In this document: one piece after another, positions 2,075 through 62,989 of the stretch
Layout: every line of letters begins with the position of its first letter
Position numbering within the stretch: the stretch's first letter is position 1
Assembly: GCA_025612245.1 (NCBI GenBank)
Contig: JAAXKQ010000007.1
Coordinates: 124,001-188,000, forward strand
Reading direction: 5' to 3'
Origin: Ignavibacteria bacterium
GTDB lineage: Bacteria; Bacteroidota; Ignavibacteria; Ignavibacteriales; SURF-24
Length of the DNA stretch: 64,000 nt
Made by a program: the position numbers and the translations under genes
The notes under the pieces: generated by a model
Databases searched by the model: none
What the model was told of the DNA's origin: nothing
What the model saw: only the letters and a program-made list of their open reading frames with translations

Positions 2075-3099
2075 AAAAACTTGAAAAAAGAGATGCCAGG
2101 CTTTACGCACCTTTTGCTGATTTTGATTCAGAGCCGGTAATCAGTATCGATCCTGAGGGAAGGGTAATTCATACCAACTGCTCCTCAAACCCTTTATACT
2201 CACTGCCGGATCTGCTGGGAAGAAACTCAACTGAATTTATTCACTTCCCGTTCGATATCAGGGAGTTCATACAAAATGACCGCTCGGTTCATTTCTCCGA
2301 CTACATAAGCAACAGGTACTACTCAGTCTATTTCCGCGGAATCTCCGACCTCCAGGTGGGAGAGATATTCCTGCATGACGTCACAGAAGCAAAGATAAAC
2401 GAGGAAAAGCTCATCGACTCTGTGAGAAGACAGAAGGAAATAGCCGATATACTAAGAGAGAAAATGGAGCTTGAGAGGCAAACCCTGGCTGGACGCATCT
2501 ATGACGAGGTGAACCAGAACCTCTCTGTCGTGCGCCTGAAGCTGCAGAAACTGAGCACCCTGCACGATAATACCTGCAACACGGATTCCGAAGAATACCT
2601 CAAGGCTATTAGCCTGCTCGAGAATACCATCAACGTATTAAAAGACATCTCTTACCACCTGAAACCGAAAATCCTGGATGAAGTGGGCCTCGCCCCGGCA
2701 ATTAACGGCCTGTGTACTGAAATATCCAGACAAAGCGGCATAAAGGGAAGCGTAAATATTGTTCAAACTGACAATAACATGGATAAGAAATGCGTAACCT
2801 ACCTCTTTAGAATAATCCAGGAAGCTTTGAACAATGTAGTCATGCATTCAAGGGCTACAGAGTTCAGCGTGCAGCTGATTGAAAATGAAAAGTTTACCAG
2901 GGTCTTCCTTTCCGATAACGGCATCGGATTTGACCCTGAGAAAATAAAGACCGACGATCTGAATAAAGGTCTTGGTCTGTTGAATATTAAAGAAAGGACA
3001 GAAGCCTTGAACGGAAAATTAAAAATCGATTCGTTCCTGAACAAGGGAACAGTTATAATTGTGGAAGTGCCAAAACAAGCAGGACTCGTACATGCCTAG
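2062..3099 (+). CDS. NarL/UhpB-type sensor kinase homologue with the acceptor His replaced by Tyr
   Basis: Order of domains: a PAS-like region (about 15-115), a helical dimerisation segment of the HisKA_3 type (about 130-200) and an HATPase_c domain (about 240-340). The ATP-binding boxes are intact: QEALNNVVMHS (N box), DNGIGF (G1) and GLGLLNIKER (G2). The usual E-L-H-D phospho-acceptor motif reads R-I-Y-D: residue 147 is Tyr (TAT at 2500-2502). In this family that His is the autophosphorylation site, so this is either a pseudokinase or acts only on a phosphorylated partner. No transmembrane segment. Start at 2062 or, by ATGA coupling with the small ORF, 2071. It overlaps the response regulator by 8 bp. 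Confidence 0.85.
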   Translation: MLQMKKLEKRDARLYAPFADFDSEPVISIDPEGRVIHTNCSSNPLYSLPDLLGRNSTEFIHFPFDIREFIQNDRSVHFSDYISNRYYSVYFRGISDLQVGEIFLHDVTEAKINEEKLIDSVRRQKEIADILREKMELERQTLAGRIYDEVNQNLSVVRLKLQKLSTLHDNTCNTDSEEYLKAISLLENTINVLKDISYHLKPKILDEVGLAPAINGLCTEISRQSGIKGSVNIVQTDNNMDKKCVTYLFRIIQEALNNVVMHSRATEFSVQLIENEKFTRVFLSDNGIGFDPEKIKTDDLNKGLGLLNIKERTEALNGKLKIDSFLNKGTVIIVEVPKQAGLVHA

Positions 3100-3793
3100 C
3101 CCGAACAGTATTAGAATAATTGTTGCCGATGACCATTCATTGTTCCGGAGCGGTATTATAAGCCTCCTTGAAGATGCTGCCGAGATTTTTGTGGTGGGAG
3201 AGGCCAACGACGGCATGGATCTTTATAACAAATATTTTGACCTCAGACCTGACGTCGTCCTGGTCGATATTTCTATGCCCGGCGTAACTGGAATCGAAGC
3301 CATGCAGAAAATCCTGGAAAGAGACCCCTCGGCAAAAGCCCTCTTCCTCTCAATGCACGAGGGGGAGGAATATGTTTACCATATACTCAAGGCCGGAGGA
3401 AAGGGACTCATCAGCAAAAATGTCATGAAAGGGGAACTGGTTTACGCCATAAAAACTATCTTCAGCGGAAGAAAGTACTTCGGCGCATACTGGACCGAAG
3501 AAAGACTCGATGAGCTTAAAGAAAAATATTCCGGAGGCAATGCCGGCAGCAGCAGCGCCGCCGCCGGAGGATTCAGCACTATGCTTGCCGAGGCTTCGCT
3601 TACTCAGAGGGAAATCGAGATCCTTAAGCTCATCGGCGAGGGCTATACGAGCAACGAAATTGCAGCCAGAACCGGACTCAGCAAGAGAACCATCGACAGC
3701 CACAGGATTCACCTCATGAGCAAGCTCGGCATCAAAACACTGCCTGAGCTCATAAAGTACGCAATTCAGTACATTCTTCAGCACAGGGATTAG
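3092..3793 (+). CDS. LuxR/NarL-family response regulator
   Basis: The receiver domain (about 1-120) has the acidic pair in VADDHSLFRSG, the phospho-acceptor Asp in VLVDISMPG and the Lys in GLISKN. A Gly/Ala/Ser-rich linker (GGNAGSSSAAAGG) leads to a LuxR-type helix-turn-helix, LTQREIEILKLIGEGYTSNE through RTIDSHRIHLMSKL. The start at 3092 fits the receiver N-terminus; an upstream in-frame ATG at 3059 would add eleven residues inside the kinase gene. The 8-bp overlap says the two are co-translated partners. Since the neighbour lacks its phospho-acceptor His, phosphate may come from another kinase or a small phosphodonor. The gene ends 3 bp from a convergent permease gene. Confidence 0.9.
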   Translation: MPSPNSIRIIVADDHSLFRSGIISLLEDAAEIFVVGEANDGMDLYNKYFDLRPDVVLVDISMPGVTGIEAMQKILERDPSAKALFLSMHEGEEYVYHILKAGGKGLISKNVMKGELVYAIKTIFSGRKYFGAYWTEERLDELKEKYSGGNAGSSSAAAGGFSTMLAEASLTQREIEILKLIGEGYTSNEIAARTGLSKRTIDSHRIHLMSKLGIKTLPELIKYAIQYILQHRD

Positions 3794-50687: not shown

Positions 50688-51020
50688 ATGAAGTTGGCCT
50701 ATTTTGTTTGAAAAATGTCTAAAAATACGGAATTAGATTGTTTTCTCAAAAAAGCTATTCTTTTGGCCTGGAAAGGGGGCCTGAAATTGCACTGTTTTAA
50801 TAAAAAAACGAGGCCGTTTTACCGGTGCAGAAATTTTCCCCCCCGGCCTTAAAACCCCTCCTTAGGGAAGTCACAAACCCCGTTTTTAGGCCGAAAAAAG
50901 GCTCTATCAAAAAACTGACCCGTAAGCTGCCCATAACCCGTGCTTTACCACTTTTTAAGGCATTGACAAGCTTGCCCAAAAATATTTGTTTCTATTAAAA
51001 CGTTTAACTGACGGTTGACA
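50688..51020. other. 333-bp divergent gap before the LacI gene
   Basis: No credible ORF. An imperfect inverted repeat (50844-50855 with 50882-50893, 11 of 12 pairs) lies in the middle. TTGACA at 50963-50968 and AATATTTG at 50981-50988 may be the promoter of the LacI-type gene, followed by the operator-like AAACGTTT. Confidence 0.4.
50998..51005. promoter_or_regulatory. LacI-type operator candidate AAACGTTT
   Basis: AAACGTTT with a central CG, inside TTAAAACGTTTAA, lies 15 bases before the start of the LacI-family gene. LacI-family operators are palindromes with a central CG, so this may serve autoregulation. No second copy was noticed in front of the TonB receptor gene. Confidence 0.4.
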
Positions 51021-52046
51021 ATGACCCCTACGATCAAGGATGTGGCACAGAAGGCAAAGGTTTCCATTGCAACGGTTTCACTGGTAATTCACAACAATGA
51101 AAAGATCTCCTACGAAACGCGCATGCGTGTAAACAAGGCCATAAAGGACCTGAATTATCACCCCTTCAGGTCCGCGCGCGGCCTTGCATCAAGAAAGACG
51201 GGTAACCTGGCCTTTATTGTAACCGAGGATCACTTCCTGCGCTCGGAGCCTTTCTATACGCACATCTTCTTAGGCGCCGAGTTCGAAGCTCGGCAAAATG
51301 AATACTATATACTGCTTACAATTATTCGCTCCGACTTTAAGCAGGGCGACCGCCTGCCCAGGTGCATAGTGGAAAGAAATGTCGACGGCATAATCTTTGC
51401 CGGCAAGGTGCCCCAGGATATAATTTCATGCCTCGAAAAGTACGAGCTCCCGATGGCTTTTGTCGATTACTACCCCCCGGCTGAAAATTATCCGGTCGTC
51501 CTTATAGACAACTTTTCCGGTGGCATGCAGGCCGTGCAGCACCTGAGTGCACTCGGTCACAGGCACATTGCCTTTGTTGCCGGAGATATACAGCACCCGA
51601 GCATAAGGGACCGCTTCCAGGGCTATAAGGTCGCCCTCGAAAACGCAGGCCTCAGCTACAGTTCTAAGATGAGCATCATAGACGAGGCTTACCCGGCAAG
51701 GGAAAACGGCTACAGCGCCGCAAAAAGGCTGCTCAGGGATAATAAAAACGTAACGGCAATCTTTTCGTGCAACGACGCAATGGCAATCGGCGTCATGCAG
51801 TTCCTCAAGGAATCCGGCCTCAGGGTCCCCGAGGACGTCTCGCTTATAGGTTTCGATGACGTTGACGCCGGGCTTTCACTGGACCCTCCCTTGAGCACTA
51901 TCGGCGTCCCGAAGCTTGAGCTCGGAGGCGAGGTCATGCGCTTGATGGCAGATATGCTGAATAACAAAGTCAAAAGCCCCAAGAAGGTGCTGGTCCCCGT
52001 GGAATTGATAAAGAGAAAGTCAACCGCTGAGGTTAAGATTTCCTAA
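51021..52046 (+). CDS. LacI-family transcriptional regulator, 341 aa
   Basis: N-terminal helix-turn-helix and hinge: TIKDVAQKAKVSIATVSLVI, NYHPFRSARGLASRKTGNLA. The ligand domain has AIFSCNDAMAIGVMQFLKES and VSLIGFDDVDAGLSLDPPLS, as in sugar-responsive regulators of this family. The start is taken at 51021 (MTPTIKDV); a TTG six bases upstream is also in frame. It opens a run of plus-strand genes for a dehydrogenase, exported proteins and a TonB receptor, so it likely controls them in response to a sugar or polyol. Confidence 0.92.
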   Translation: MTPTIKDVAQKAKVSIATVSLVIHNNEKISYETRMRVNKAIKDLNYHPFRSARGLASRKTGNLAFIVTEDHFLRSEPFYTHIFLGAEFEARQNEYYILLTIIRSDFKQGDRLPRCIVERNVDGIIFAGKVPQDIISCLEKYELPMAFVDYYPPAENYPVVLIDNFSGGMQAVQHLSALGHRHIAFVAGDIQHPSIRDRFQGYKVALENAGLSYSSKMSIIDEAYPARENGYSAAKRLLRDNKNVTAIFSCNDAMAIGVMQFLKESGLRVPEDVSLIGFDDVDAGLSLDPPLSTIGVPKLELGGEVMRLMADMLNNKVKSPKKVLVPVELIKRKSTAEVKIS

Positions 52047-52067: not shown

Positions 52068-53096
52068 ATGCAGGCGGCACTATTTACAGGTTCACACAAA
52101 ATCAGTGTGACAGATTACCAGATCCCCCCGCTTAAACCGGGTGAGCTCCTGCTCAGGGTGGGAGCTTGCGGCGTCTGCGGCACGGATTTCCATATATTCG
52201 AAGGAAATGCCCCGGCTAAGGCTCCCGTTATCCTGGGACACGAATACACGGGGCAGATCGTCGACGTGGGACAGGAGGTTAATGAGCTTAAAATCGGCGA
52301 CAGGGTTGCCGTTAATCCCAATATACACTGCGGCTACTGCGAATTCTGCCGTAAGGGTAAAATTAACCTCTGCCTTAACCTTAAGGCGCTGGGAGTAACG
52401 GTTAACGGCGGATTTTCGGAGTATTCCATCGTCCCGAGAACTCAGACACACCTCATACCTAAAAACTTCCCGTACCGCATAGCTGCCTTTTCAGAACCGC
52501 TTTCATGCTGCGTGCACGGCATCAACCAGGCGGATATTAAAACCGGCGAGACCGTCTCTATCGTCGGAGCCGGAACAATCGGACTTCTGATGCTCCAGCT
52601 GGCTGAACTTAAAGGCGCCTCGGAAACATTCGTCTACGACATCTCGGAACAGAAAAGGGAAATTGCACTTAAACTTGGCGCAGATGCCGCCTTGGACCCC
52701 ATGGACGAAAATTCACTCCAGGAAGTAAAAGACCGCATGCCTGGAGGAACGGACGTCGTAATTGAATGCGTCGGAAGCCAGAAGGCCGCCGAATTTGCAC
52801 TTAAACAGGTTAAAAAAGGGGGCACTCTCGTCATTTTCGGACTCGCGGACCCGAAGGCTTTCATCAGCCTTTACCTGCAGTCATTTTTCCACAAGGAGCT
52901 GACAGTCAAAAGCTCAATCCTGAATCCCAATACTTTTCAAACAGCAGTCGACCTTCTGGTTACAGGCAAGGTAAGAACCGACCTGTTTAACCCGGCAGCC
53001 GTACAGCTGAATAACAAAGACATTAACGCTCTTTTTAACGATCCGAGGGAAAACTCAGTCATAAAGTACATGGTAATTCCCGAAGGCTGGAAATGA
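52068..53096 (+). CDS. zinc-dependent alcohol/polyol dehydrogenase (MDR family)
   Basis: Catalytic zinc ligands C37, H58 and E59 in ACGVCGTDFHIFEGN and VILGHEYTGQIVDVG; structural zinc site with four Cys in NIHCGYCEFCRKGKINLC. NAD(P)-binding motif VSIVGAGTIGLLMLQLAEL and the acidic residue in FVYDISEQKRE point to NAD. Related to sorbitol/threonine dehydrogenases; the substrate, probably a polyol or sugar acid, is inferred from the LacI neighbour 21 bp upstream. 342 residues, normal length. Confidence 0.9.
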   Translation: MQAALFTGSHKISVTDYQIPPLKPGELLLRVGACGVCGTDFHIFEGNAPAKAPVILGHEYTGQIVDVGQEVNELKIGDRVAVNPNIHCGYCEFCRKGKINLCLNLKALGVTVNGGFSEYSIVPRTQTHLIPKNFPYRIAAFSEPLSCCVHGINQADIKTGETVSIVGAGTIGLLMLQLAELKGASETFVYDISEQKREIALKLGADAALDPMDENSLQEVKDRMPGGTDVVIECVGSQKAAEFALKQVKKGGTLVIFGLADPKAFISLYLQSFFHKELTVKSSILNPNTFQTAVDLLVTGKVRTDLFNPAAVQLNNKDINALFNDPRENSVIKYMVIPEGWK

Positions 53097-53134: not shown

Positions 53135-55705
53135 ATGATCAAAGGTTCACGATACGTAAAAAGCTTAATGGTTCTCGTACTGTTTTTCCTGGGTTCCTTC
53201 TTCGACCTTCACGCACAGCTTGGCCAGTTTAAGACAATTGGCAGCTTTGAGGATTCTCTTCCGAGTTACTGGATGAAAGGCAAGGTAACAGGAGCAACAC
53301 TGGACTGGGCAACGGACCAGTCAAGGTCAATGGGCAGGTCACTGAAGATCACCAAGGCTGCAGCTACAACAGATTCGGTCTACTGGCAGTCGGAGAATAT
53401 GACGGACCTGTGGTCACCCAAGGTACTAAAGGACGTAGACATACTTCTCGGTGCATTCGTAAGGACGGAAAACGTCAACCTGAACCCAGCAAATGACGAT
53501 GCAAGGTGGTGGATATCGTACCTGTTCTACGACAGCACGGGAGCAAAGATCGGGGAGATAAAGCTTCCCATAGACCAGACGAAAGCATCCAGCGGAGGCT
53601 GGGTCGCAGATACAAATGCAGCGGGATCGGCCATACTGCCTAAGGATGCCTGGAAACTGGTCATAATGTTCGTTGCAGGCAAAAATGCAACCGGTACGGT
53701 CTGGGCCGATGACTTCATCCTGACGGGAAGAGGCGGAGCCTGGGCAGGACAGGACTGGAATACATCGGTCGGAGTCCCGACGGGCTGGAACTACTGGCTG
53801 CCTCCAAATGGCGGCAATGACGCAAAACTGAACTCGGGATTTGAGAATACGAGAATTACGAGCGAGTTTGCACACTCCGGAACATACTCCCTCAAGTTCG
53901 ATTCACTCTCAGGCACTCACGACGCCTGGGTCGGTACGAAGAGATTCGAGCTTCCGGCAAATACAAAAGCCGGAGATATTCTCCATATCAGCGTATGGGT
54001 TAAAGCCAACCACCTCTCACCTGACTCCGCAACGGCAAACCCCGGAACCTGGGGCGTGGGCTTTACACCAATATTCCACTCGGGCTGGAAGAATAACGAT
54101 CCTTATGACGAAATAGGATCAAAGGACCTTGTATTTACATTTCCATCCGGAAAACAGGATACGGCATTTGACTGGACACAGTATCAGATGGCCTATCAGG
54201 TTCCGGACGATCCTAAAGTCAAAGCATTCTCTCTTAGGATACACGTCTATTCACGCTTCCGCGGAACGATTTACTTTGACGACCTTAACGTCCAGAAGAT
54301 GAATAATATTACCAGTATTAACCAGATCGGCGGCTTTGAAAGTGACCTTCCGAGCTACTGGATGAAAGGCAAGGTAACAGGAGCAACACTGGACTGGGCA
54401 ACGGACCAGTCAAGGTCAATGGGCAGGTCACTGAAGATCACCAAGGCTGCAGCTACAACAGATTCGGTCTACTGGCAGTCGGAGAATATGACGGACCTGT
54501 GGTCACCCAAGGTACTAAAGGACGTAGACATACTTCTCGGTGCATTCGTAAGGACGGAAAACGTCAACCTGAACCCAGCAAATGACGATGCAAGGTGGTG
54601 GATATCGTACCTGTTCTACGACAGCACGGGAGCAAAGATCGGGGAGATAAAGCTTCCCATAGACCAGACGAAAGCATCCAGCGGAGGCTGGGTCGCAGAT
54701 ACAAATGCAGCGGGATCGGCCATACTGCCTAAGGATGCCTGGAAACTGGTCATAATGTTCGTTGCAGGCAAAAATGCAACCGGTACGGTCTGGGCCGATG
54801 ACTTCATCCTGACGGGAAGAGGCGGAGCCTGGGCAGGACAGGACTGGAATACATCGGTCGGAGTCCCGACGGGCTGGAACTACTGGCTGCCTCCAAATGG
54901 CGGCAATGACGCAAAACTGAACTCGGGATTTGAGAATACGAGAATTACGAGCGAGTTTGCACACTCCGGAACATACTCCCTCAAGTTCGATTCACTCTCA
55001 GGCACTCACGACGCCTGGGTCGGTACGAAGAGATTCGAGCTTCCGGCAAATACAAAAGCCGGAGATATTCTCCATATCAGCGTATGGGTTAAAGCCAACC
55101 ACCTCTCACCTGACTCCGCAACGGCAAACCCCGGAACCTGGGGCGTGGGCTTTACACCAATATTCCACTCGGGCTGGAAGAATAACGATCCTTATGACGA
55201 AATAGGATCAAAGGACCTTGTATTTACTTTCCCTTCGGCGGCGCAGGATACGGCATTTGACTGGACTGAATACTCAATTGATTACCCGGTACCCGATGAT
55301 CCCAAGGTTAAGGCGTTCTCAGTCAGGATACACGTCTATTCACGCTTCCGCGGAACGATTTACTTTGACGACCTGACCGTTCAGACCACAACGACCACTG
55401 CCGTTCATGGAAAGAATGTTGCTCTTAACAGCTTCAGCCTGGAGCAGAACTATCCTAATCCTTTTAACCCGACTACTACAATCCGCTACAGTATACCCGA
55501 ACACGCGGTTGTTACGCTGAGGATTTATGACATGCTCGGACGCGAAGTAAAGACGCTCGTAAATACCGAACAGAACCCCGGACAGTATAACGCTACCTGG
55601 AACGGAGACAACAACTACGGAACCAGGGTGGCCAGCGGCATTTATATCTACAGGGTTCAGGCCGGTAAATATGTCCAGGTCAAAAAGATGATGCTCCTGA
55701 AGTAG
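53135..55705 (+). CDS. T9SS-sorted protein of two near-identical 363-residue repeats
   Basis: Signal peptide to about residue 28 (FLGSFFDLHAQ). Two tandem 363-residue units (about 33-395 and 396-758) each hold two beta-sandwich domains resembling CBM4/9-type carbohydrate-binding modules, with Trp-rich faces (SYWMKGKVTGATLDWATDQS, YWLPPNGGNDAKLNSGFENT and IYFDDLNVQ). The C-terminal 85 residues are a type A T9SS sorting domain: EQNYPNPFNPTTTIRYS, LRIYDMLGREVKTLV and SGIYIYRVQAGKYVQVKKMM. No catalytic domain is visible, so it should bind glycan at the cell surface. AGGAGG lies before the ATG. Next in line after the dehydrogenase. Confidence 0.85.
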   Translation: MIKGSRYVKSLMVLVLFFLGSFFDLHAQLGQFKTIGSFEDSLPSYWMKGKVTGATLDWATDQSRSMGRSLKITKAAATTDSVYWQSENMTDLWSPKVLKDVDILLGAFVRTENVNLNPANDDARWWISYLFYDSTGAKIGEIKLPIDQTKASSGGWVADTNAAGSAILPKDAWKLVIMFVAGKNATGTVWADDFILTGRGGAWAGQDWNTSVGVPTGWNYWLPPNGGNDAKLNSGFENTRITSEFAHSGTYSLKFDSLSGTHDAWVGTKRFELPANTKAGDILHISVWVKANHLSPDSATANPGTWGVGFTPIFHSGWKNNDPYDEIGSKDLVFTFPSGKQDTAFDWTQYQMAYQVPDDPKVKAFSLRIHVYSRFRGTIYFDDLNVQKMNNITSINQIGGFESDLPSYWMKGKVTGATLDWATDQSRSMGRSLKITKAAATTDSVYWQSENMTDLWSPKVLKDVDILLGAFVRTENVNLNPANDDARWWISYLFYDSTGAKIGEIKLPIDQTKASSGGWVADTNAAGSAILPKDAWKLVIMFVAGKNATGTVWADDFILTGRGGAWAGQDWNTSVGVPTGWNYWLPPNGGNDAKLNSGFENTRITSEFAHSGTYSLKFDSLSGTHDAWVGTKRFELPANTKAGDILHISVWVKANHLSPDSATANPGTWGVGFTPIFHSGWKNNDPYDEIGSKDLVFTFPSAAQDTAFDWTEYSIDYPVPDDPKVKAFSVRIHVYSRFRGTIYFDDLTVQTTTTTAVHGKNVALNSFSLEQNYPNPFNPTTTIRYSIPEHAVVTLRIYDMLGREVKTLVNTEQNPGQYNATWNGDNNYGTRVASGIYIYRVQAGKYVQVKKMMLLK
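53267..54138 (+). repeat. first copy of an 872-bp tandem DNA repeat
   Basis: This stretch recurs at 54356-55227 (offset 1089 bp, 363 codons) and I find no difference by eye, including synonymous sites. A less similar patch, 54139-54236 against 55228-55325, follows, and then identity returns for about 50 bp. The pattern indicates a recent duplication or gene conversion. It has no transposon-like ends and no coding function other than the protein. Confidence 0.9.
54356..55227 (+). repeat. second copy of the 872-bp tandem DNA repeat
   Basis: Identical by eye to 53267-54138, in the same direction and frame. A repeat of this length can recombine and change the number of repeats in the protein, and can also cause assembly errors with short reads. 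Confidence 0.9.
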
Positions 55706-55808: not shown

Positions 55809-55887
55809 ACACTACGGAATCCTACGGTACGGTTTTTCAGCGATCTCGGTTTATCATTAGAATTTCAATAAACTACAGGTGAATTTA

Positions 55888-58596
55888 ATGTTCACTAAAG
55901 TGATACAATGCAAAATTTATATATATGCATTCATTCTCTCTGCCTTGCTCTCGGCAGCAGAGCTTCGGGCGGGAACGACGGGTAAAATCTCCGGCCGCGT
56001 CATGGACGCAACAACTAAGGAACCCTTAATTGGCGCTACCGTCGTCCTGTCTGGAACTAAAATGGGAGCGGCCTCGGATATGGATGGAAACTACTTCATA
56101 CTCAACATCCCGCCCGGAACCTATACGCTTAAGGCTACTGCGGTCGGCTATGCTTCAACTACAATTACAAACGTCAAGGTCTCGGTCGACGTGACTACAA
56201 AAATGGATATTCTCATGGGTGAGCAGGCTATTCAGCTGGATAACGTAGTCGTTACGGCAAGCCGCCCACTCGTGCAGAAGGACCTGACTTCAACCGAGGC
56301 AAGCGTAAGCGGCGAGCAGATCTCAATGCTGCCTCTGGAGGACGTGCAGGCGGTCATTAACCTCCAGGCCGGCGTCGTCGAGGGCCACGTCCGCGGCGGC
56401 AGAATGAATGAGGTTAAATATATGCTCGACGGCGTCTCGGTCAACGACGCCTTTACGGGCGACTACTCAATGCTTGCCGAGGTCAACAGCGTCGCCGAAG
56501 TACAGGTAATTACCGGTACTTTTAACGCCGAATACGGCGAGGCTCTCTCGGGCGTCGTTAACCAGGTGACAAAACTTGCCGGCGACTCGGTCTCAGGTGA
56601 ACTCCAGGTCTATTCAGGCGACTACTTTTCCACAAGACGAAACCAGTTCGGCCAAAGACTCTATAATAACATTAACCGCATAGACCCTAAAAACGTCTAT
56701 AACATTCAGGGAAGCCTGAGCGGCCCGGTACCCTTTACAAAAGGCTTCATGAAATACTTCTTCTCGGGAAGATACCTCAATGACGATGGATACCTCTACG
56801 GACAGAGAATCTTTAATCCGTCGGATTCTTCCAACTTCTCTGCCAACAACCCAAGTGACTGGTACGTGGGTGCAACAGGGGACAGGAAGTATGTCTCAAT
56901 GAATTACAGCAGGCGCTATACGCTGCAGGGTAAAATTTCCTTTGACGTCGGAAACGGCAAGGGACTCATACTTTCTGGCATGCTGCAGGACAGGAAGTAT
57001 AAGGAATATAACCACGCATACCAGCTAAACCCCGACGGGGACTACCAGAGGTTCCAGAACAGCCTCTTGGGCAGCATAACCTATAACCACGTCTTCGGGC
57101 AGAGCACCTTTATAGATATTATCGGCTCCGTATTTTCAACCGAGGCCAAGCAGTACGTCTATGAAAACCCGCTGGACCCCCGATACGTGAACCCGGAAAG
57201 GCTTAGGGATGCCGGGGCCAACTCTTTCCTGACAGGCGGAACCGAAAACTGGCACCTTCAGCACCGTACTACAACCAGTACGGGTAAAATAGATTTGACT
57301 TCTCAGGTCTTTAATTTCCTCCAGCTTAAAAGCGGCATTGAGGCCAATTTCCACAGGCTTAATTACAAGGACTTCCAGATCCACGTCGACGCTTCCACGG
57401 GCTACAGGCCCGCACTGCCTCAGCCCGGGGATTTTGACTATAATACTTATATCGTCAACCCTTACCAGCTGGCTTATTACATTCAGGGCAAGATCGAACT
57501 GGAATACCTCATCGTAAACCTGGGCGTAAGATTCGACTACTTCCAGCCCGATGCCTCGTACCTGAAAAACCCGGACCAGATTGCTGAACTCGATACACTG
57601 CGCCCCCCGTTCCCGTCCGCATTCTTTAATAAGGCTACCGTAAAATCCCAGATAAGCCCGAGGCTCGGCATTTCATACCCTATTTCCGACAGAGGGGCAA
57701 TCCATATTTCATATGGACACTTCTTCCAGATACCCCCCTTCGATTACCTCTACCGGAATCCTAACTACAGGATCCCTCTGGTTGGCGACTTCCCGGACTT
57801 TGTAGGAAACATTATCGGCAACCCCGACCTTCAACCCCAGCGCACAACTATTTATGAAATTGGCCTCCAGCAGGGGCTTACTGCCGATATCGGACTGACA
57901 CTTACGGCATACTACAAGGATATACGCAACCTCCTCGGTACTGAAATCCACATAAAAAATGAATTTAAAAAGTTTGCCAAATTCGTCAACACCGACTACG
58001 GCTCCGTAAGCGGATTTATCGTCGCCTTCGACAAACGCTTCAGCCAGGGCTTCAGCGCAAGCGTCGACTATACATACCAGGTTGCTAAGGGCAATGCCTC
58101 AGACCCTAATGAGGCTTTCAACAAGCAGCAGGCTAGCCCTCCGGTCGAGGTCAATAAACAGCTGGTATTCCTGGACTGGGACCGCAGGCACTCGCTTAAC
58201 TTTACACTCACGGCAGGCATACCGGGCAACTTTATCGGAAGCCTCATCGGACGACTCGGCTCTGGACTGCCTTATACGCCGGCCCTGCAGAACCAGAGGA
58301 CTGGCCTCGAGAACAGCGATACACGCCCGGCTGTCTTTAACATTGACCTCTACCTTACGAAATATTTAATGATGATGGGCCGCGGGCTTTCTCTTTTCCT
58401 CAAAGTCTATAACCTCTTTGATACGGCAAACGAAGTTAACGTCTTTACCGATACCGGCAGGGCCGGCTATACGCTCGACCTTACGCGCTCTCAGGCTCAG
58501 CCCCGCGGAGTCAATACACTGCAGGAATACTTTACGAGGCCCGACTTTTATTCCGCCCCGCGCCAGGTTATTCTAGGCGCTTCTCTTAATTTTTAG
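55888..58596 (+). CDS. TonB-dependent receptor with carboxypeptidase-like regulatory domain
   Basis: After a signal peptide, a CarboxypepD_reg-like domain (about 28-110: GKISGRVMDATTKEPLIGAT, GTYTLKATAVGYASTTI), then a plug domain with DNVVVTASRPLVQKDLTST, GGRMNEVKYMLDGVSVNDAF and GTFNAEYGEALSGVVNQVTK, then a beta barrel that ends with an aromatic-rich strand (RQVILGASLNF). It should import a large ligand using TonB energy, though no SusD is next to it. Start at 55888 (AGG eight bases upstream); GTG at 55879 is also in frame. Follows the T9SS repeat protein by 182 bp. Confidence 0.9.
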   Translation: MFTKVIQCKIYIYAFILSALLSAAELRAGTTGKISGRVMDATTKEPLIGATVVLSGTKMGAASDMDGNYFILNIPPGTYTLKATAVGYASTTITNVKVSVDVTTKMDILMGEQAIQLDNVVVTASRPLVQKDLTSTEASVSGEQISMLPLEDVQAVINLQAGVVEGHVRGGRMNEVKYMLDGVSVNDAFTGDYSMLAEVNSVAEVQVITGTFNAEYGEALSGVVNQVTKLAGDSVSGELQVYSGDYFSTRRNQFGQRLYNNINRIDPKNVYNIQGSLSGPVPFTKGFMKYFFSGRYLNDDGYLYGQRIFNPSDSSNFSANNPSDWYVGATGDRKYVSMNYSRRYTLQGKISFDVGNGKGLILSGMLQDRKYKEYNHAYQLNPDGDYQRFQNSLLGSITYNHVFGQSTFIDIIGSVFSTEAKQYVYENPLDPRYVNPERLRDAGANSFLTGGTENWHLQHRTTTSTGKIDLTSQVFNFLQLKSGIEANFHRLNYKDFQIHVDASTGYRPALPQPGDFDYNTYIVNPYQLAYYIQGKIELEYLIVNLGVRFDYFQPDASYLKNPDQIAELDTLRPPFPSAFFNKATVKSQISPRLGISYPISDRGAIHISYGHFFQIPPFDYLYRNPNYRIPLVGDFPDFVGNIIGNPDLQPQRTTIYEIGLQQGLTADIGLTLTAYYKDIRNLLGTEIHIKNEFKKFAKFVNTDYGSVSGFIVAFDKRFSQGFSASVDYTYQVAKGNASDPNEAFNKQQASPPVEVNKQLVFLDWDRRHSLNFTLTAGIPGNFIGSLIGRLGSGLPYTPALQNQRTGLENSDTRPAVFNIDLYLTKYLMMMGRGLSLFLKVYNLFDTANEVNVFTDTGRAGYTLDLTRSQAQPRGVNTLQEYFTRPDFYSAPRQVILGASLNF

Positions 58597-58622: not shown

Positions 58623-61600
58623 GTGTACAAAAATAAATTTTTGGCCAAAGGCACGATCCTTTTTCTGAGCCTTCTTTTCCTCTTGAGCCCCGAAGCCCTG
58701 CTGGCCCAAAGGCTCATCGACAAAAACAGGGGAAGCCACTTCAACAGCAAAAAAGGTTACATGGACGGCAACCTTGTGCAGACCGTATACTATAACTTTG
58801 GAGAGATTGCCGACTGGCTTAACGACCCCACACTTAGCGGCGTGTGGCCCAAAGGTACAAACCATACTTATGTCGATGGCGTGGCTGTAATCGTTCAGGC
58901 CGAGACAAAGGACCCTCAGGGTAAGACTATTCACCCCCTCGAGACAAACTACTACGAGTATACCAGGCACGACGTGGCTACAGGCGTTACTTACGGCTGG
59001 TGGCCGCTCCCGGGATACGCAAACCCTTACCAGCCTTATGTCGCAAGAAGCGATGACCCCAATACGTGGCCCTTGCACTGGCCCGATAGACCGTCCGACT
59101 GGGACGGCAAGTGGAACGGATTTTTCGGCAATAACGTCAGAAATGCCGACCTCGAGACCTACTTCGTCTTTGACGACAATGAGGATAAGGATTATATTCT
59201 CAAGAATAACTTCCACCCCGATGCCGAAGACCCAACGCGCGGCGGACTTGGCCTCCAGGTGCACGCAAGAGGCTTCCAGTGGTCCCAGGTGCTGGCTGAA
59301 GACGTTATCTTCTGGTACTATGAAATTACAAATATGGGCACTACAGACTACCAGAGGGCCCTCTTCGCTCAGTACGTCGACTGGGGTATTGGCGGCCACG
59401 ATAACTCCTCAAATAACGCCGGAAACTACGACGCGCTTCTGAATATATCTTATGCCTACTCCGTCGTCCCTTTCGGTACCCCGGGCAGCTGGAGCCCCGT
59501 TGGTATTGCAGGCTATGCATTCCTGGAAAGCCCCGGAATTCCGGATGACAATAAGGATAACGACGAGGACGGTCTTACCGACGAGAAGCGCGATAACGTG
59601 GCACAGAATTTTATCAACCTCCCTACGGAGGACCCTTTCCTCAGGGACCCCGCACGCGACACGCTGCAGTTCCAGAAATTCTATGGCTACTCCTGGAGAC
59701 CTCACTGGGATGCCGACGAGAACTGCAACTGGAGAAGCTTTAATGACCTCAATGCAAACGGAAAATGGGATGCCGGCGAACCACTTAACGACGACGTCGG
59801 AAGCGACGGCATAGGCCCTTACGACGAGGGCTATACAGGCCCGGATCCCAACGGCACAGAGGCTAACGGAAGACCGGACCAGGGCGAACCTAATTTCGGC
59901 ATCCTCGATAAGGATGAATCGGACCAGCTTGGACTTACAGGATTTCTTATCGCGGCAGTGCATACATACGACCTTAATAACGACGAACATAACTGGCAGG
60001 GACTCTCGGCACTTCCGCCCCCAAGAGTTCAGTCACTGGTCGGTGTAAACCTCGCAAACTATTTTTCATCCTATTTCATTCACCTCCAGGGACGCACTTC
60101 CTATAGCGCTGCAACCGGACAGGTGCAGGAGACAGGGGAGACCGAAAGGTTCTCTATGGGCCTCATCTTTGCCCTGGATAAAAATGACCTCTTCAGGCGG
60201 AAAAGAACCGTTCAGCAGATCTATAACGCAAACTACCGCTTCGCAAAGCCCCCCGATAAGCCGCTCATTAAGGCTATCGCAGGAAACGGAAAGGTGACGC
60301 TCTACTGGGACGACAGGGCCGAGAAGACTTTCGACGCCTTCTACCAGAGGTATAACTTTGAAGGCTACAGAATTTACATGGCTACCGACCCTAACTTCCT
60401 GGAGACCAAGGTCGTAACCGACGCTTACGGCAAAAGCGTCTACAGAAAACCACTCGCACAGTTCGACCTGGTCGACGGCGTTACCGGACTGCATCCCATA
60501 AATGTAAACGGCGCTATGTTCTACCTCGGCGACGATACCGGGCTGCAGCACTCCTATGTCGACACTACCGTGCAGAACGGACAGACATACTACTACGCCG
60601 TCGTGGCCTACGACAAGGGCTTTACTACTACCACAATCCAGGGGGAGTTCCTCGGAATTCCACCTTCTGAAACTACGAGCATTATAAAGCAGGACGTGAA
60701 CGGCACCATAAAAACTGACGTCAATACCGCTGCCGTTACACCCCACGCCCCGGCTGCAGGATACGTCCCGCCGCAGATCTCACAATACCTGGCAAGCGGA
60801 CCCTCATCGGGATCCGTAAATATAGACATCATCGACCCGGAGCAGCTTAAGAATAATAATACATACAGGGTGGAGTTCCTGGACTTTACGAAGTATCACA
60901 ACAACCGCCACCCCTTCTACAGCCTCATCAATACGACGACAAACGACACGGCCATAAAACCCATTCAGATGAAGGGGGCTAACGAACAAACACTCGTTGT
61001 TGACGGATTCTCCGTCAACCTCAATAACGATACTCTCGTTACGGTCGATAATGCCAAAAGCGGCTGGGTTAAAGGAAACAGCAACTACGTGGCTACTGTC
61101 GGCTTCGACCCCCGATACGTAAAAACCTACGGCGGCAGGAGAATCGACTACCCCGCAGACTTTGAAATTACTTTCCTTGAAAAGGGAAAGGGCGATTCCT
61201 CTTTCGTCGCAAAGTCCTTCAGCCAGCCCAGCGCTTCGAATATTACTATTAGAAACATTACCGAGGGACTCGAACACGTGCAGTTTATCCTGGAGGAACC
61301 TACGGGTGCCGACTCCATGTTCGATGCCAATGACGCTGCCTTTATTGTCGTGGGAGACTCTGCAGGAAAACGTGCTACGGGTATTTCGGACTACAGGGTT
61401 ACCTGGTCGCTGACCTTCCAGGTCGATACCACAATTAAAGAGGCCCCAAGACCCCCTCAGCCCGGAGACGTATTCAGGATTGCCACCACAAAACCTTTCA
61501 GAACGGGCGAGCACGTCGATTTTACAACCAAGGCTCCTTATCTGGACCCCACAAAGGCTAAAAACGACCTGAGCCTAATTGACGTGGTGCCAAACCCATA

Positions 61601-61880
61601 TACCGGAGCCGCATCCTGGGAACCTCTTACTACCAGCGTCGGACGTGGCGAAAGAAGAATTAACTTTATTCACCTTCCCGCCCAGTGCGATATCAGGATC
61701 TATACGATGAGCGGAAAGCTCGTCCAGACACTGTCACACTACAGCACGGCCGATAACGGCCAGGAGGCCTGGAACCTGGTTTCACGCGATGGAATGGATA
61801 TAGCTTACGGCGTCTATATCTACCACGTTGATGCCCCGGGCATTGGGACTAAGATAGGCCGCTTTGCAATTATTAAGTAA
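58623..61880 (+). CDS. large secreted FN3-type protein with C-terminal T9SS-like domain, 1085 aa
   Basis: Signal peptide (ILFLSLLFLLSPEALLAQ), then a long domain with many Trp and Asp residues and Ca-binding-like repeats (DDNKDNDEDGLTDE, DLNANGKWDAGEPLNDD, DPNGTEANGRPDQGEP). A fibronectin type III-like part follows (KPLIKAIAGNGKVTLYWDDR, YYYAVVAYDKGF). The end, DVVPNPYTGAASWEPL with IRIYTMSGKLVQTL and YGVYIYHVDAPG, is a T9SS-type sorting or anchoring domain. The start codon is GTG with GGAGG six bases ahead. Twenty-six bases after the TonB receptor gene, so the two are co-transcribed. Possible surface partner of that receptor, inferred. Confidence 0.82.
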   Translation: MYKNKFLAKGTILFLSLLFLLSPEALLAQRLIDKNRGSHFNSKKGYMDGNLVQTVYYNFGEIADWLNDPTLSGVWPKGTNHTYVDGVAVIVQAETKDPQGKTIHPLETNYYEYTRHDVATGVTYGWWPLPGYANPYQPYVARSDDPNTWPLHWPDRPSDWDGKWNGFFGNNVRNADLETYFVFDDNEDKDYILKNNFHPDAEDPTRGGLGLQVHARGFQWSQVLAEDVIFWYYEITNMGTTDYQRALFAQYVDWGIGGHDNSSNNAGNYDALLNISYAYSVVPFGTPGSWSPVGIAGYAFLESPGIPDDNKDNDEDGLTDEKRDNVAQNFINLPTEDPFLRDPARDTLQFQKFYGYSWRPHWDADENCNWRSFNDLNANGKWDAGEPLNDDVGSDGIGPYDEGYTGPDPNGTEANGRPDQGEPNFGILDKDESDQLGLTGFLIAAVHTYDLNNDEHNWQGLSALPPPRVQSLVGVNLANYFSSYFIHLQGRTSYSAATGQVQETGETERFSMGLIFALDKNDLFRRKRTVQQIYNANYRFAKPPDKPLIKAIAGNGKVTLYWDDRAEKTFDAFYQRYNFEGYRIYMATDPNFLETKVVTDAYGKSVYRKPLAQFDLVDGVTGLHPINVNGAMFYLGDDTGLQHSYVDTTVQNGQTYYYAVVAYDKGFTTTTIQGEFLGIPPSETTSIIKQDVNGTIKTDVNTAAVTPHAPAAGYVPPQISQYLASGPSSGSVNIDIIDPEQLKNNNTYRVEFLDFTKYHNNRHPFYSLINTTTNDTAIKPIQMKGANEQTLVVDGFSVNLNNDTLVTVDNAKSGWVKGNSNYVATVGFDPRYVKTYGGRRIDYPADFEITFLEKGKGDSSFVAKSFSQPSASNITIRNITEGLEHVQFILEEPTGADSMFDANDAAFIVVGDSAGKRATGISDYRVTWSLTFQVDTTIKEAPRPPQPGDVFRIATTKPFRTGEHVDFTTKAPYLDPTKAKNDLSLIDVVPNPYTGAASWEPLTTSVGRGERRINFIHLPAQCDIRIYTMSGKLVQTLSHYSTADNGQEAWNLVSRDGMDIAYGVYIYHVDAPGIGTKIGRFAIIK

Positions 61881-61960: not shown

Positions 61961-62989
61961 ATGAAGAGAATATTGTTACTGTTAATGTTTATATATCCGG
62001 CTTTTCTTCCGGCACAGATCTTCAACAGAAATGTTTCCAAAACCAGCACCGTTGCGGCTACATTTCTTGAGATACCCGTGGGAGCTTCATCAATCGGAAT
62101 GGGTGGGGCTTTCGTCAGTATCGCCAACGACGCTACGGCACTCTACTGGAATGCTGCCGGCATCGCCAATATGCAGCAGATGGAATTCCTTGCTCAGCAT
62201 ACAAACTGGCTCGCTGGAACAGGATTCGACTTTGCGGCTCTCATCCTGCCCCTGAGCGGCATCGGAACCTTCGGCTTCAGCTTTACTTCCCTTAATATGC
62301 CCGATATGAAAGTCACTACGGTCGATATGCCCGAGGGTACGGGCGAATTCTTCAGCGCGGGCGACCTGGCCGTCGGAATCGCTTATGCAATGAGCCTTAC
62401 AGACAGGTTCTCTATCGGCTTTAACGCCAAATATATTCAGCAGAGCATCTGGCACGAATCCGCCTCGGGCTTTGCCGTCGACTTCAGCACTATCTTTAGA
62501 ACGGACCTGCTGAACGGACTCGTTATCGGTGCCGCAATTTCAAACTTCGGCACCTCAATGAAACTCTCCGGCAGGGATACCAGGACATTCGGACGGGTGG
62601 ACCCCACAAAACTGGGCTCTAACGAGAGAATTCCGTTCGACATTGAAATGGATTCGTGGGACCTGCCTCTTTTCATGCAGCTCGGAGTCTCGACAAACCT
62701 GGTCAAATCGGAAGAGTTCAAGTGGCTCGTTGCCGTCGACGCGCTTCACCCGAACGACAACTACGAAAGCGTTAACGTGGGAAGCGAAATCTCCTACCAC
62801 GATATGGTGTTCTTAAGGGGAGGCTTTAACTCGCTTTTCCTCAAACAGAAAGAAGGCGGCCTCTCGCTCGGCATTGGCGTGAGCTCGGGAAATTTCTTCG
62901 GACAAACGGGCGTCAGGTTCGACTACGCATACAGGAATTTCGGTCGCCTGGAAAATATACACGTCTTCTCGGTTGACCTGAAGTTCTAA
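61961..62989 (+). CDS. PorV/PorQ-family outer-membrane beta-barrel, 342 aa
   Basis: Signal peptide MKRILLLLMFIYPAFLPAQ, then the PorV/PorQ signature: FLEIPVGASSIGMGGAFVSI and NDATALYWNAAGIANMQQME, with a run of amphipathic strands that ends VFSVDLKF. In T9SS bacteria PorV (LptO) escorts sorted cargo to the surface attachment complex. Whether this is the shuttle or only a paralogue cannot be told; proximity to two genes with sorting-like C-termini supports a role in their export or display. 80 bp after the previous gene. Confidence 0.85.
   Translation: MKRILLLLMFIYPAFLPAQIFNRNVSKTSTVAATFLEIPVGASSIGMGGAFVSIANDATALYWNAAGIANMQQMEFLAQHTNWLAGTGFDFAALILPLSGIGTFGFSFTSLNMPDMKVTTVDMPEGTGEFFSAGDLAVGIAYAMSLTDRFSIGFNAKYIQQSIWHESASGFAVDFSTIFRTDLLNGLVIGAAISNFGTSMKLSGRDTRTFGRVDPTKLGSNERIPFDIEMDSWDLPLFMQLGVSTNLVKSEEFKWLVAVDALHPNDNYESVNVGSEISYHDMVFLRGGFNSLFLKQKEGGLSLGIGVSSGNFFGQTGVRFDYAYRNFGRLENIHVFSVDLKF

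Follow-up and report, generated by a model that had tools for sequence, protein, structure and literature searches.

Analysis of a 64,000-nucleotide stretch of an Ignavibacteria genome (the window) points, with a probability of roughly three in four, to a protein exported by type IX secretion (T9SS), probably glycan-binding and encoded in a beta-mannoside-type uptake operon, in which a module was duplicated long ago, most of the module was recently overwritten by exchange between the copies, and a faster-evolving 3' part tended to escape. Duplication of a module of about 352 residues, consisting of two CBM-like jelly rolls, would be the old event; homologous exchange between the modules would have overwritten most of the module recently, leaving 872 identical bases. 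The route may have been conversion, or unequal crossover that also gains and loses modules, either of them by ordinary homologous recombination. The well-conserved first domain would stay identical between modules, and the faster-evolving 3' part, or second domain, would tend to drop below the similarity required for exchange and keep its older divergence.

Relative age of block and patch in the array gene

The array gene and its parts occupy the following positions of the window, in which there is no N:

53135-55705, + strand: array gene, 856 aa, with a hydrophobic N-terminus, two modules of about 352 aa and a T9SS type A C-terminal domain
53237-54291, + strand: module 1 (two jelly-roll, CBM-like domains in the predicted fold); ends approximate
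54326-55380, + strand: module 2; ends approximate
53267-54138, + strand: 872-bp exact block, copy 1
54356-55227, + strand: 872-bp exact block, copy 2
54139-54235, + strand: divergent patch of module 1, 97 bp, 32 mismatches against module 2
55228-55324, + strand: divergent patch of module 2
54236-54285, + strand: 50-bp exact block at the 3' end of the module, copy 1
55325-55374, + strand: 50-bp exact block at the 3' end of the module, copy 2
55451-55693, + strand: C-terminal sorting domain, T9SS type A (TIGR04183, 46.1 bits, cut-off 23)

The initial annotation had reported two identical 872-bp blocks within one gene, and the match is indeed base-exact: at offset 1089, 872 of 872 bases are equal, with both copies in a single 856-aa open reading frame. 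It had also described a widely divergent patch of 98 bp after the blocks; the divergence at the codon level stands, with 32 mismatches, but the length is corrected to 97 bp, the last mismatch lying at 54235. Identity after the patch amounts to exactly 50 bp and stops where the module stops, and homology also extends about 30 bp 5' of the 872-bp block, with mismatches at 9 of 30 bases. Homology thus reaches beyond the exact block, and the natural unit is the module of about 352 residues, whose two copies are connected by a short linker, with the C-terminal sorting domain after them.

The codon-by-codon alignment of the two units that was proposed with the initial annotation sets block and patch far apart in age. 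The block is free of synonymous change (0 changes on 200 synonymous sites), whereas in the patch 16 codons carry synonymous differences and 8 encode another amino acid, with 22 changes on 21 synonymous sites; fourfold sites match at 150 of 150 positions in the block and at 2 of 12 in the patch (Fisher p = 2.6e-14). Among patch codons that specify the same residue, 16 of 24 differ, against 14.0 if the codons were drawn independently (P = 0.25). Codons of the patch are therefore as different as random draws, indicating that the patch is old and its synonymous sites saturated, and no single recent duplication of the whole unit can account for both an identical block and the saturated patch beside it. 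For scale, dS between the window species and a congener (G001) is 0.94-1.77 in neighbouring operon genes. The idea that codons of the patch were scrambled by selection as a block to recombination was considered separately and rejected, the difference rate being that of random expectation.

Probable exchange between modules in related genomes

With one genome compared per species, the module finds matches at E <= 1e-5 in 37 of 96 genomes, the window's counted; an order-wide search at E <= 1e-30 likewise finds it in 37 of 164. Two or three modules are read through in 8 of the 37 carriers (the window species G000, and G001, G037, G038, G047, G060, G061 and G077), a single module is present in five (G008, G012, G052, G092, G094), and two have a run of N within the module (100 N in G009, 10 N in G040). 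Module number among these relatives thus ranges from 1 to 3, between species.

One test of conversion is the congener. In the window species and in G001 alike, the gene's own modules are 100% identical over the head (residues 13-225), G001 having its own exact tract of 676 bp; between the two species the same heads are 77.9% identical, that is, 22% different, with a dS of about 1.0. A second test comes from G060, in which an exact run of 1760 bp at offset 1071 spans modules 1 and 2 and the head of module 3, and the three module tails are of types A, A and B; the tails and the run together are as would be expected of a product of unequal crossover within identical heads.

A third comes from G060 and G007, which belong to different genera. 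The last modules of both carry an 18-codon segment that the inner modules of both lack. In the tail tree (a 107-column protein alignment of 55 rows, short 5' pieces excluded) the inner units of the two species group together with support of 100/94 and the last units with 84/84, the latter not starred. The heads of the two, by contrast, group by species, a tree forcing the last heads together being rejected (AU p = 0.0004). In a DNA test on 54 codons the best tree leaves the last units apart, uniting them is not rejected (p = 0.36), and neither is grouping of the tails by species (p = 0.09 for G060, 0.07 for G007). A tree that unites the last units is rejected over the final 76 codons (p = 0.04); there G007 falls by species, and for G060 the same grouping is not rejected (p = 0.36). 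The signal of position thus lies around the indel, and the extreme end of the module also looks exchanged, at least in G007. The preference of the initial annotation for an older duplication with conversion over a single recent duplication is supported, as regards an old duplication with later homogenisation by either route, by the heads, identical within each congener and 22% apart between them, and by the G007 and G060 arrays, in which one tail segment follows position and the heads follow species; the link with position does not extend to the extreme end of the module.

In all trees the G040 locus (L068) was excluded for its 10-N gap within the module; G009 was retained as a 'single' row or as outgroup, although its 100 N may conceal a collapsed array. 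L042 is a duplicate of L059 and L046 of L060, and one of each pair entered the trees; both L042 and L046 are included in alignment A1.

In the tail trees the two tails of the window gene, and likewise those of G001, group by species. Conversion in the window gene therefore rests on the relative age of block and patch and on the pattern in relatives, and for this gene taken alone a candidate remains in which the whole module was duplicated once, more recently than the species split, after which one 97-bp tail was replaced by recombination with a diverged allele of another strain. Besides the grouping of the tails, this account draws on their protein identity, which is 83% to each other against 55-69% to those of the congener, and on the 50-bp exact stretch that resumes directly after the patch. 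It is nonetheless unlikely, because it requires independent events in the window species and in G001, striking the 3' part both times, and because the tail markers of G060 and G007 are common by position. A donor is also lacking in the source genome (97% complete): with the module as query at E <= 1e-5, the two modules of the array are the sole matches, and a donor paralogue elsewhere in the genome was accordingly rejected. The whole array protein yields 129 matches there, 128 of them to the C-terminal tail, some of these alignments also covering the end of module 2, by as many as about 45 residues.

Within-gene identity in 11 genes with at least two modules, compared by codon, ranges from 0.710 to 0.996. 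It is high in G060 (0.996 between modules 1 and 2, 0.929 between 2 and 3), G047 (0.962), G007 (0.961), the window gene (0.955) and G001 (0.917), intermediate in G077 (0.899) and G061 (0.834), and low, at 0.71-0.75, in G037, G038, L043 and L047; by a crude self-comparison the arrays of G180, G398, G105 and G107 look diverged too. Homogenisation of the modules is well supported, and these diverged arrays indicate that it is not universal. Homogenised arrays cluster by species. The modules of G038, L043 and L047 cluster by position in the tail tree, their modules 2 doing likewise in the head tree, which shows an old array that has not been homogenised recently. Within-gene identity drops where conservation between species drops, a weak correlation (Spearman 0.48, p = 0.02, 23 bins, 7 gene pairs) that is consistent with escape of the faster-evolving part.

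In a sample of the phylum (genomes at least 90% complete), 15 of 296 genomes match the module at E <= 1e-20. In distant families near-identity recurs: G301 has two modules with 1071 bp identical, on a 497-kb contig, and in G323, a single contig of 4.8 Mb, identity between the two modules is 98.1% over 1049 bp. The modules of G180 differ widely, and those of G398, of the same class, also seem diverged. Identity to the window module is about 29-35% for the modules of G301, G323 and G180, which adjoin LacI and TonB homologues. Congeners of G301 have a single module (G171, with a frameshift, and G166, interrupted), so that unit number varies within a genus. The interruption in G166 (L113, about 2426-3520) is an insertion of about 1.1 kb, the frame of which resembles a transposase by eye.

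Two further arrays have unusual structures. G004 carries a second, single-module copy of the gene upstream of LacI (L055 9473-10945 and 13708-13842; L072 8947-9204), and its operon proper also has a broken array beside that copy. In G007 (L065 9501-11462) about 30 codons of the first domain are missing from inner module 1 and about 23 from inner module 2, codons that the partial third module has; this may be a true deletion or an assembly error.

In 22 of the 37 carriers the module is cut by a contig end, with the match running to 16 bases or fewer from that end. From rounded contig numbers, 2.6 such genomes are expected for a target of one module length, 4.9 for two and 6.9 for three. In the same 37 genomes the TonB orthologue is found in 35 and cut in 1, and the orthologue of the 1085-aa operon protein is found in 35 and cut in 3. 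The 5' contigs stop 121-471 bases after the start of the module, 9 of 15 at 121-166 bases, and 19 3' contigs begin at residues 114-312, a pattern that fits de Bruijn assembly of near-identical repeats with a shared 5' start and a variable 3' stop. Module number is consequently not readable for many of these species.

Such breaks demonstrate that assemblers do fail at this gene, and the window array itself might be an artefact, with near-identical modules collapsed to one consensus that was traversed twice, or with a true module number that is higher. This is quite improbable: the window, free of N, lies on a contig of 211 kb, the same state is read through on an 808-kb contig in G060, the long contigs of G323 and G301 carry modules 98% identical and identical over 1071 bp, respectively, and collapse presupposes modules that were already nearly identical. 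Strong selection alone, on the protein or on DNA or RNA signals, holding the modules identical without recombination is very improbable, for although the first domain and interdomain segment are well conserved across species, fourfold sites match at 150 of 150 within the gene and at 44 of 90 between the congeners (residues 13-230), and synonymous sites fixed within one gene but not between species make it implausible.

Export, predicted fold and operon context

The hydrophobic N-terminus of the array protein is a putative signal peptide, judged by eye. The C-terminus, in addition to its TIGR04183 match, matches PF18962 (31.9 bits, cut-off 27), and the source genome encodes T9SS machinery above cut-off: SprA at 816 bits (cut-off 200) and PorU at 987 bits (cut-off 420). 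Cargo of this system may be anchored on the cell or released.

The window module has no match in Pfam even at E 1. Assignment to Pfam CBM_4_9 (PF02018) was tried and rejected, as it matches 1 of 16 modules, at E 0.007, and the window module is not that one. A search of PDB sequences with a module profile returned two antibody chains only (E 0.02-0.18), which we regard as chance. An AlphaFold2 model from a 16-module input has two beta-sandwich domains (mean pLDDT 74.1, pTM 0.75) and is poor at residues 167-185 and 190-203. The top Foldseek match is the CBM22 tandem 4xup, at E 8.7e-13 across both domains with a pair TM-score of 0.28-0.30, and CBM16 (TM to target about 0.6), CBM4 and CBM27 chains are returned as well; VIA-align gives CBM4-2 (2y6k) at Z 12.8, CBM16-1 with mannopentaose (3oeb) at Z 11.8 and human promeprin beta (MAM domain) at Z 13.1. 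Since promeprin and CBM4-2 top the VIA list within 1 Z, no CBM family can be assigned, and the fold of the module as modelled is carbohydrate-binding-like. Between species, the most conserved part of the module is residues 151-200 (mean identity 0.74-0.78), where domain 1 ends and the interdomain segment, with its GAWAGQDWNT and YYWLPP-like motifs, follows; part of these residues is poorly predicted by the structure model.

The array gene lies third in an operon whose other members in the window are:

51015-52046, + strand: LacI-family regulator, first gene of the conserved operon
52068-53096, + strand: zinc-type alcohol/polyol dehydrogenase
55879-58596, + strand: TonB-dependent receptor with a carboxypeptidase-like N-terminal domain
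58623-61880, + strand: conserved operon protein of 1085 aa, no Pfam match at E 0.01
61961-62989, + strand: PorV/PorQ-family outer-membrane protein (NF033709, 201 bits, cut-off 90)

This order (LacI, dehydrogenase, array gene, TonB receptor, 1085-aa protein, PorV-family protein) is kept in most relatives fetched; the dehydrogenase is absent from the operon in some (for example L040, L048, G012 and G047), and extra frames precede the array gene in L043 and L047. The C-terminus of the 1085-aa protein has a weak, below-cut-off likeness to a T9SS sorting domain, and homologues of this protein (E <= 1e-10) occur in 37 of 37 carrier genomes, most of which have several paralogues.

Beyond the window, the same contig encodes a PPIase-like protein, an ABC sugar transporter, two GH130 enzymes, a GH2 enzyme and a GH94-like enzyme. 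The two GH130 genes, the GH2 and GH94-like genes and a gene for a 431-aa protein lie just past the window end (L073 5700-9337 and 12625-17618); the 431-aa protein has no Pfam match at E 0.001 and has a homologue in each of the 14 downstream stretches fetched. In these stretches, from 14 genomes, GH2 and at least one GH130 are present in all 14 and two separate GH130 genes in 13, both GH130 queries matching a single gene in G044. Pfam names GH130 mannooligosaccharide phosphorylase, and we take beta-mannosides to be the substrates of GH130 and GH2 enzymes of this kind, so that a mannan-type substrate would be the likeliest; gene content thus suggests that the operon serves beta-mannoside use. 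The 'surface binding protein' of the initial annotation gains backing from the T9SS tail, the CBM-like model and the operon, with binding itself a prediction, and the role of the protein may be avidity for a beta-mannoside.

Relation to known repeat proteins and significance

The closest parallel lies in the Periscope Proteins (SasG, Rib, Sgo_0707, CdrA), which excerpts of two papers describe as surface proteins with tandem, individually folding domains of near-identical DNA and variable unit number, for which intragenic recombination is proposed and which short reads cannot resolve (PMC8201768, PMC9704523). By the definition excerpted from one of them, the tandem repeats exceed 50 residues, fold individually and are highly identical in DNA (PMC9704523); in these excerpts it is stalks holding out a functional domain that vary in length, for the most part in human pathogens (PMC8201768, PMC9704523). 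Measured against those excerpts, the array is alike in its long, near-identical and individually folding tandem repeats (on a predicted fold of mean pLDDT 74) and in a unit number that changes, here between species. It differs in that the repeat is a presumed binding module of about 352 aa with no N-terminal functional domain on a stalk, in having only 1-3 copies seen, and in T9SS export. Module 1 starts at about residue 35, right behind the hydrophobic N-terminus, which leaves no room for a preceding domain; as stalk and N-terminal domain are absent, we describe the array as working like Periscope Proteins but do not count it among them.

Tandem CBM arrays of glycan-active proteins (CBM22-CBM22 of Xyn10C, 4xup; CBM16, 2zey/2zez/3oeb) have jelly-roll carbohydrate-binding folds in tandem, as predicted here. 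Unlike them, the array protein has no catalytic domain found and its module no Pfam family. The two copies of the module here share every base of DNA over 872 bp. SusE and SusF are surface glycan-binding proteins of Sus-type polysaccharide utilisation loci, and the array gene similarly encodes a probable glycan-binding surface protein and adjoins a TonB receptor in a glycan operon. In contrast to Sus loci, there is no match to the SusD family among the 16 proteins scanned, the receptor falls below the cut-off of the SusC model TIGR04056 (77 against 368 bits), and the array protein has a T9SS tail in place of a lipoprotein anchor. In the titles and abstract starts of the open-licence literature, the matches listed contain nothing on a homogenised CBM array or on this operon, and no paper there joins Ignavibacteria, type IX secretion, carbohydrate-binding and TonB.

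The repeated part of this protein would be the binding module itself rather than a stalk, inside a conserved sugar-uptake operon of bacteria that are known mainly via environmental metagenomes. Near-identity between modules recurs in distant families, the mosaic tails are a natural record of where exchange stops, and long reads would make module number directly countable. More tentatively, and with the balance of probability against it, many members of the phylum might possess a copy-number-switching glycan-binding array that many published assemblies hide by breaking in the gene: identical heads would keep the modules recombination-competent, cells could gain or lose entire CBM pairs, avidity for a polysaccharide would change with them, and position-specific tails would keep the last module distinct.
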